A stretch of 64,000 nucleotides of DNA from Tannerella sp. Lineage in GTDB: Bacteria > Bacteroidota > Bacteroidia > Bacteroidales > Tannerellaceae. The stretch lies in assembly GCA_031276175.1 (NCBI GenBank), contig JAISNP010000109.1, forward strand, positions 1 through 64,000, in the 5' to 3' direction. Below are positions 1 to 61,124 of this stretch, in pieces. Every line of letters starts with the position of its first letter. Positions within the stretch are counted from its first letter, which is position 1. Made by a program: the position numbers and the translations under genes. A model generated the notes under the pieces. That model was not told the origin of the DNA. It did no database searches and saw nothing but the letters and a program-made list of their open reading frames with translations.

Positions 1-28
1 AATAAAAAGATAAGAATGTTTCCGTATT

Positions 29-500
29 AGAAACTGCTTTGAATTAACATAAATATGGACGACAATAACCGAGTTTCCGTCGACAACAACCGAATTATTG
101 TCGACAACAACCGAGTTTCCGTCGACAACAACCGAGTTTCTGTCGACAACAAATGAGTTTCTGTCGACAACAACTGAGTTTCTGTCGACAACAAATGAGT
201 TTCCGTCGACAACATTTGAGTTTCTGTCGACAATAAATGAGTTTCTGTCGACAACATTTGAGTTTCTGTCGACAACAAATGAGTTTCTGTCGACAACAAC
301 CGAGTTTCTGTCGACAACAAATGAGTTTCCGTCGACAACATTTGAGTTTCTGTCGACAACATTTGAGTTTCCGTCGACAACAACCGAGTTTCCGTCGACA
401 ACAACTGAGTTTCTGTCGACAACAAATGAGTTTCCGTCGACAATAAAAAGAAGAAATACTGCCTGCCGATAAGCATTTATGCTAATTCAAAACAGTTTCT
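29..500. repeat. Tandem array of about 18.5 x 21-bp units (CGACAACAAnnGAGTTTCnGT; each contains GTCGAC) at 60-448, flanked by 26-bp inverted repeats (29-54 / 475-500, 24/26 identical)
   Basis: Direct reading: CGAC start recurs every 21 bp from 60 to 438; left arm AGAAACTGCTTTGAATTAACATAAAT versus reverse complement of right arm AGAAACTGTTTTGAATTAGCATAAAT. Confidence 0.93.
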
Positions 501-19240: not shown

Positions 19241-19469
19241 CGGAGTTAACTCCGAGCCGCGCAGAGTTAGCTCCGAACCGCGCGGAGTTAACTCCGAGCC
19301 ACGCAGAGTTAGCTCCGAGCCGCACGGAGTTAGCTCCGAACCCACGCGGAGTTAGCTCCGAACCACGCGGAGTTAACTCCGAGCCTCTCGGAGTTAGCTC
19401 CGAACCCGCGCGGAGTTAGCTCCGAGCCACGCGGAGTTAGCTCCGAGCCGCGCGGAGTTAACTCCGAAC
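19241..19469. repeat. Tandem array of about 11 x 21-bp units carrying CGGAGTTAACTCCG-type palindromes
   Basis: Direct reading; period 21 with occasional 1-nt insertion; flanked by 17-bp direct repeat CCGAACGGCAAAAACTT (19058-19074, 19464-19480). Confidence 0.93.
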
Positions 19470-45922: not shown

Positions 45923-46040
45923 CGGGGAAAAGCGGGGATGCGCGCACGGCAAAAACGCCGGACAGCATTGCCCCGCCGCACGGGACGGGGGAGTTTGTCG
46001 CACGGGACACTCCGCGGAGGCAAATTCAACGGAATTTTTC

Positions 46041-46875
46041 GTGCCGGAGGTTCCGGGAACAAAAATGCTCGGGGAAATTTTCGTCCCGGAGGTTCCGGGA
46101 ACAAAAATGCTCAGGGAATTTTTCGTGCCGGAGGTTCCGGGAACAAAAATGCTCAGGGAAATTTTCATGCCGGAGGTTCCGGGAACAAAAATGCTCGGGG
46201 AAATTTTCGTGCCGGAGGTTCCGGGAACAAAAATGCTCAGGGAAATTTTCGTCCCGGAGGTTCCGGGAACAAAAATGCTCGGGGAAATTTTCGTCCCGGA
46301 GGTTCCGGGAACAAAAATGCTCGGGGAAATTTTCGTCCCGGAGGTTCCGGGAACAAAAATGCTCGGGGAATTTTTCATGCCGGAGGTTCCGGGGACAAAA
46401 TTGCTCAAGAAATTTTTCATGCCGAAGGTTCCGGGGACAAAATTGCTCAAGAAATTTTTCATGCCGGAGGTTCCGGGGACAAAATTGCTCAAGAAATTTT
46501 TCATGCCGGAGGTTCCGGGGACAAAATTGCTCAAGAAATTTTTCGCTCCGAAGGTTCCGGAGACAAAATTGCTCAAGAAATTTTTCGCTCCGAAGGTTCC
46601 ATGGACAAAATTGCTCAAGAAATTTTTCATCTCGGAGGTTCCGGGAACAAAAATGCTCAGGGAAATTTTCGTCCCGGAGGTTCCGGGAACAAAAATGCTC
46701 GGGGAAATTTTCGTCCCGGAGGTTCCGGGAACAAAAATGCTCAGGGAAATTTTCGTCCCGGAGGTTCCGGGAACAAAAATGCTCAAGAAATTTTGTGTGC
46801 CGAAGTCTCCGGGAACAAAAATGCTCTGGAAATTTTATGTGCCGAAGTCTCCGGGAACAAAAATGCGCATAGAAG
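46041..46875. repeat. Tandem array of about 20 x 42-bp units between convergent hmuV and the MATE gene
   Basis: GTsCCGGAGGTTCCGGGAACAAAAATGCTCrGGGAAATTTTC; units begin exactly at 46041+42n through 46839; two unit subtypes. Confidence 0.95.
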
Positions 46876-53020: not shown

Positions 53021-55953
<2,933 letters not shown>

Positions 55954-61040: not shown

Positions 61041-61124
61041 AACCGCGAGGTTGAAAGACCGAACCTCAAGGTTAAAAGACCGAACCTCGAGGTTGAAAGA
61101 TCGAACCTCGAGGTTGAAAATCCG
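61041..61124. repeat. Tandem array of 4 x 21-bp units (AACCTCGAGGTTGAAAGACCG)
   Basis: Exact 21-bp register at 61041, 61062, 61083, 61104; AACCTCGAGGTT palindrome. Confidence 0.92.

Follow-up and report, generated by a model that had tools for sequence, protein, structure and literature searches.

The element at the contig start is a 470-bp MITE with a 21-bp array

The window analysed here is a 64,000-nt stretch of Tannerella sp. DNA, which runs from base 1 of contig C85. A repeat search of the window confirmed the inverted arms of the preliminary description: they are 26 nt long, lie at 29–54 and 475–500, are complementary in 24 of 26 positions (92%) and stand 420 nt apart. The array that it had placed between them was borne out as well, as TRF gives a tandem repeat at 60–443 with a period of 21, 18.3 copies and 88% matches. 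When up to three mismatches are allowed, the arm sequence occurs within the 64-kb window at these two places only, and it was found in none of 100 dinucleotide shuffles.

The border of the element is better set at G30 and C499, since TTA is then directly repeated at 27–29 and 500–502. The element is thus a 470-bp MITE at 30–499, situated between TTA direct repeats, and its left flank on this contig is only 28 bp long. From left to right, the locus consists of the left copy of the putative 3-bp target duplication (TTA, 27–29), the terminal inverted repeat of end B (GAAACTGCTTTGAATTAACATAAAT, 30–54, plus strand), the minisatellite of 21-bp units with an invariant GTCGAC core (60–443), the subterminal sequence of end A, common to the copies on contigs C90 and C101 (444–474, minus strand), the terminal inverted repeat of end A (reverse complement GAAACTGTTTTGAATTAGCATAAAT, 475–499, minus strand) and the right copy of the putative duplication (TTA, 500–502). 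The neighbouring class I/II aminotransferase gene (PF00155, 634–1857, minus strand) turns its 3' end toward the element and is given for context only. We applied the term MITE to elements of 50–1000 bp with terminal inverted repeats and without a transposase gene; with its length of 470 bp, arms matching in 24/26 and no coding content, the element is of this size and structure.

Searches of Rfam and of a plasmid collection gave no match. As single-stranded DNA the element folds far better than shuffled sequences (z = −5.95), which is due to the inverted ends and the palindromic units. The very large cruciform that had been proposed is therefore physically possible, but it is a consequence of this architecture.

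Four more arrays with a period of 21 or 42 and unrelated units lie in the window (19241–19467, 46031–46866, 55664–55919 and 61041–61119). Some of them form strong palindromes (CGGAGTTAACTCCG, AACCTCGAGGTT), and none is bounded by MITE-type terminal inverted repeats.

Copies of the element are dispersed in the genome

The preliminary description had suggested looking for further copies of the arm, and such copies exist: in the whole genome (G000) the arm sequence is present 7 times versus 0 for the reversed control, and a looser arm pattern finds 13 sites. The elements at C90:47380–47767 (386 bp) and C101:6073–6250 (176 bp) have both ends nearly identical to those of the window copy. Two recognisable ends, one of them diverged, delimit the element at C59:6290–6734 (443 bp), while the one at C107:48555–49188 (632 bp) has one decayed end (AAAACCG) and a right part that recurs at the beginning of contig C67. 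Each of these four is built around a GTCGAC-centred 21-bp array. Together with the window copy there are five two-ended copies (one with the decayed end) and several truncated ones, all at unrelated loci, as expected of a multi-copy MITE. The partial copies are cut by the contig end (C133), retain one good end (C86) or show a decayed end (C5), and contig C2 holds an array of the window unit type without MITE ends.

The likeness of the copies extends beyond the inverted repeats, to subterminal sequences which are distinct at end A and end B and common to the copies; the window copy is reversed in orientation relative to those on C90 and C101. Array-bearing copies are also present in a sister species (G004), with subterminal sequence similar to that of the G000 copies. 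The assembly contigs break in or beside arrays (C85 start, C107 end and C67 start, C133 end), thus all copy counts are lower bounds.

Target duplications and homologous sites in relatives

When the element is taken as GAAACTG...CAGTTTC, TTA is found on both sides of the window copy and of the copies on C90 and C101. Among 28 elements with such ends, identical 3-bp flanks (TTA, TCA, TGA or TAA) accompany 14 and are absent in the other half, and 20 of the 28 have TNA on both sides; these counts exclude the row L059:1565–2111 of the duplication table, which matched by chance. Because T and A could belong to the inverted repeat, the evidence for duplication is the middle base only, which agrees in 14 of the 20 elements versus 7.3 expected (p about 0.0005). 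A target duplication was thus found, as looked for in a MITE, and in the 3-bp TNA form that marks the IS1031 group of IS5. In L053, L054, L060, L106 and L123 the middle bases of TNA are complementary rather than identical (e.g., TGA/TCA). Inversions between copies could yield such pairs, the numbers being too small to say more.

Two further species of the genus, G030 and G022, have many array-free MITEs with closely similar ends (L053–L060 and L105–L123). These elements are about 80–250 bp long and many contain a long internal palindrome.

Behind the aminotransferase gene, the relatives inspected have neither a pair of MITE ends nor a GTCGAC array. The same holds, in the relatives inspected, for the gene adjoining the C90 element, which we take to encode an N-acyltransferase/FemX-like protein. 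The last four codons and the stop of this gene (KKLF*; L008:5755–6720, G000:C90) are read from the inserted MITE end, and its relatives have other C-termini. Protein identity to the nearest relatives is about 80%, so this evidence for insertion is at the level of the gene and not of the base. Of the empty sites that had been suggested as a check, we therefore observe the absence of the element at homologous gene ends, and no base-level empty site was found among these relatives.

Array units differ between copies around a constant GTCGAC core

The number of GTCGAC units ranges from 3 to 26 per copy, the window copy having 18. The units are alike within a copy and often unlike between copies: the window spacers read RGAAACTCNNNTGTT, those of C90 GATAACTCATTTATT alternating with AATAATTCGGTTATT, those of C107 GTTGTCGCGAAGAAT and those of C86 GTCTGCGCCAAGAAT. 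Identity of the 15-bp spacers between subfamilies is about that expected by chance (window versus C107 0.27, versus C86 0.30), while GTCGAC is kept, which makes the array the unusual feature of the element. The search did not create this constancy, since the copies were found by their ends and not by GTCGAC; the arrays were, however, trimmed at the first and last perfect GTCGAC, which slightly favours core constancy. In C107, C86 and C5, the units at the array margins are similar to the C90/C59 type, a pattern that would be expected if repeated local amplification replaces the inner units.

Across the genus, the GTCGAC-N15 pattern gave 414 matches in 11 of 41 genomes versus 7 for the reversed control. 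MITE ends are lacking in many of these arrays. This type of array is thus distributed more widely than the MITE, which either picked it up or carries it along. GTCGAC-centred 21-bp arrays without MITE ends occur, for instance, at L087, L090, L091, L092, L093, L094 and L095, with spacers that differ per species. Arrays with a period of 21–23 and unrelated units were also seen at loci of relatives fetched via genes (L130, L143, L145, L146, L147, L148 and L150). We do not claim a genus-wide rule of 21–23-bp arrays, which were seen in such gene-anchored loci and were few in ten other 20-kb stretches.

Does the array have a function of its own? It may be a selected DNA array (e.g., one that binds a protein or organises the nucleoid), in which GTCGAC recurs every 21 bp, that is, every two helical turns, and for which the MITE is only a vehicle. 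Conservation of the core amid spacers at chance identity argues for this, as do the abundance of the pattern over its control and the many arrays without MITE ends. On the other hand, 30 of the 41 genomes have no such arrays at the threshold used, the cores of the remaining arrays in the window are different, a binding protein for GTCGAC arrays is not known, and the palindrome might instead seed array amplification. A protein-bound or structural GTCGAC array in this genus, spread by MITEs while its units turn over except for the palindromic core, is thus in our view possible but rather unlikely; this estimate covers the function of the array as such and is compatible with the element being a MITE.

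An IS5-family transposase gene with a matching terminus is present in a sister species

In the sister species G004, contig C48 begins inside an IS5-family transposase gene, whose partial protein scores above the cut-off of NF033580 (136 bits, cut-off 110) and matches PF01609 (2e-23). Just past the stop codon lies the end GAAACTGTTTTGATTTAACA (read inwards), which equals the MITE end in 19 of 20 positions, while shuffles reach 14. This end is therefore common to the MITE and to a presumably autonomous element of G004, of which one terminus is visible, the other being cut off by the contig end. On contig C117 of the same species lies a derivative of 227 bp; it has ends of this kind, retains a decayed remnant of the transposase C-terminus and is a plausible intermediate between the IS and the MITE. 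Related IS of 883 bp are present in G001 and G012, with diverged ends. In the element's own assembly (fragmented, about 91% complete) no intact partner IS with MITE ends was found; its DDE transposase loci were considered as partners and rejected, as they do not carry the MITE end (best 14–15/20, near the null). The TNA targets, the GAA.CTG ends and the related IS of about 880 bp fit the IS1031 group of IS5.

Taken together, the sequence data indicate that the window element is very probably a gene-less MITE, carrying a 21-bp array, that would be mobilised in trans by an IS5-type transposase. The transposase would come from a full-length IS that has the same ends, and would recognise the GAAACTGTTTTGAATT termini; the expected partner would be an IS of about 880 bp in which GAAACTGTTTTGAWTTAACA forms either end and which is flanked by a TNA duplication. 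The element would then move into a TNA target, whose 3 bp would be duplicated. We infer from sequence comparison that this movement is, or formerly was, catalysed by a transposase of the G004 type. After insertion, the length and sequence of the array would change by slippage or unequal recombination between the 21-bp units, with the GTCGAC core kept; the range of 3 to 26 units per copy and the copy-specific units point to these processes. The preliminary description had read the locus as an invertible or mobile cassette, with a nonautonomous element as an alternative. Mobility is supported by the dispersed copies, the TNA duplications, the sister-species transposase with a matching terminus and the absence of the element from the homologous gene ends of the relatives inspected, and the nonautonomous alternative by the copies at unrelated loci, the duplications and the IS5-family transposase gene of G004 with the same terminus.

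Inversion and coding are not supported

The other half of that reading, an invertible phase-variable segment, would make the 26-bp arms recombinase sites between which the array flips and switches a neighbouring gene. Inverted arms do flank the segment. Moreover, six elements are flanked by TNA on either side yet differ in the middle base, and in five of these the two bases are complementary, as could arise by inversion between copies. However, the same arms terminate elements that are scattered over other loci and have target duplications, and none of the six tyrosine-recombinase matches (PF00589) of the genome is on contig C85, so no linked recombinase of this type was found. Promoter-like sites (2 versus 1.0 in shuffles) are in no clear excess, and the neighbouring gene turns its 3' end to the element. 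We thus found no support for invertibility or for a genetic switch, and consider both very improbable. No intrinsic terminator was found.

A gene for a heptad-repeat protein, of 149 aa (ORF 27–476, minus strand) or 124 aa (ORF 98–472, plus strand), is less credible still and was rejected: these ORFs are open, but so are several frames at once on both strands, as expected of a stop-free unit with a period divisible by three, and the frames extend across the ends of the element and vary from copy to copy.

Comparison with known systems

Within the IS5 family, the IS1031 group (e.g., ISLrh) has a TNA target with a 3-bp repeat, a length of 857 bp and GAACCTGT ends (PMC12016507). The window element resembles it in the GAA.CTGT ends, the TNA site with its 3-bp duplication, the related full-length elements of about 860–883 bp and the IS5 transposase, and differs in that it has an array instead of a transposase gene. 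MITEs with internal repeats are known from Porphyromonas: MITEPgRS/MITE464 of P. gingivalis combines IS5-type ends with 41-nt internal tandem repeats, and BrickBuilt, found in P. gingivalis and P. gulae, is an IS5-type MITE with a 23-nt minisatellite (PMC4596501). The window element differs from MITEPgRS/MITE464 in ends, unit length and unit sequence.

The closest precedent is BrickBuilt. Like it, the window element is a minisatellite inside an IS5-type MITE, with IS5-type terminal inverted repeats, non-repetitive subterminal segments and a spacer-less internal array of about 20-bp units, and both are intergenic, variable in copy number, without a transposase gene and present in several copies per genome. 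However, BrickBuilt is recognised by GAGACCTTTGCA ends and a 23-nt unit, whereas the window element ends in GAAACTGTTTTGAATT (more fully, GAAACTGTTTTG) and has a 21-bp unit with a GTCGAC core. Moreover, its target duplications are clear 3-bp TNA repeats, while those of BrickBuilt are irregular (PMC4596501), and its family, unlike BrickBuilt, has array units that differ from copy to copy. The window element is thus another member of that kind and, by ends, period and unit, not BrickBuilt.

What is new in comparison with BrickBuilt are the regular TNA duplications and the transposase gene next to a matching end, both of which the BrickBuilt study lacked, and the copy-specific units around a constant GTCGAC. 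Minisatellite-carrying IS5 MITEs are therefore not peculiar to Porphyromonas gingivalis, and the constant core within replaced units may reflect either selection of the repeat for binding or a palindrome that seeds amplification.
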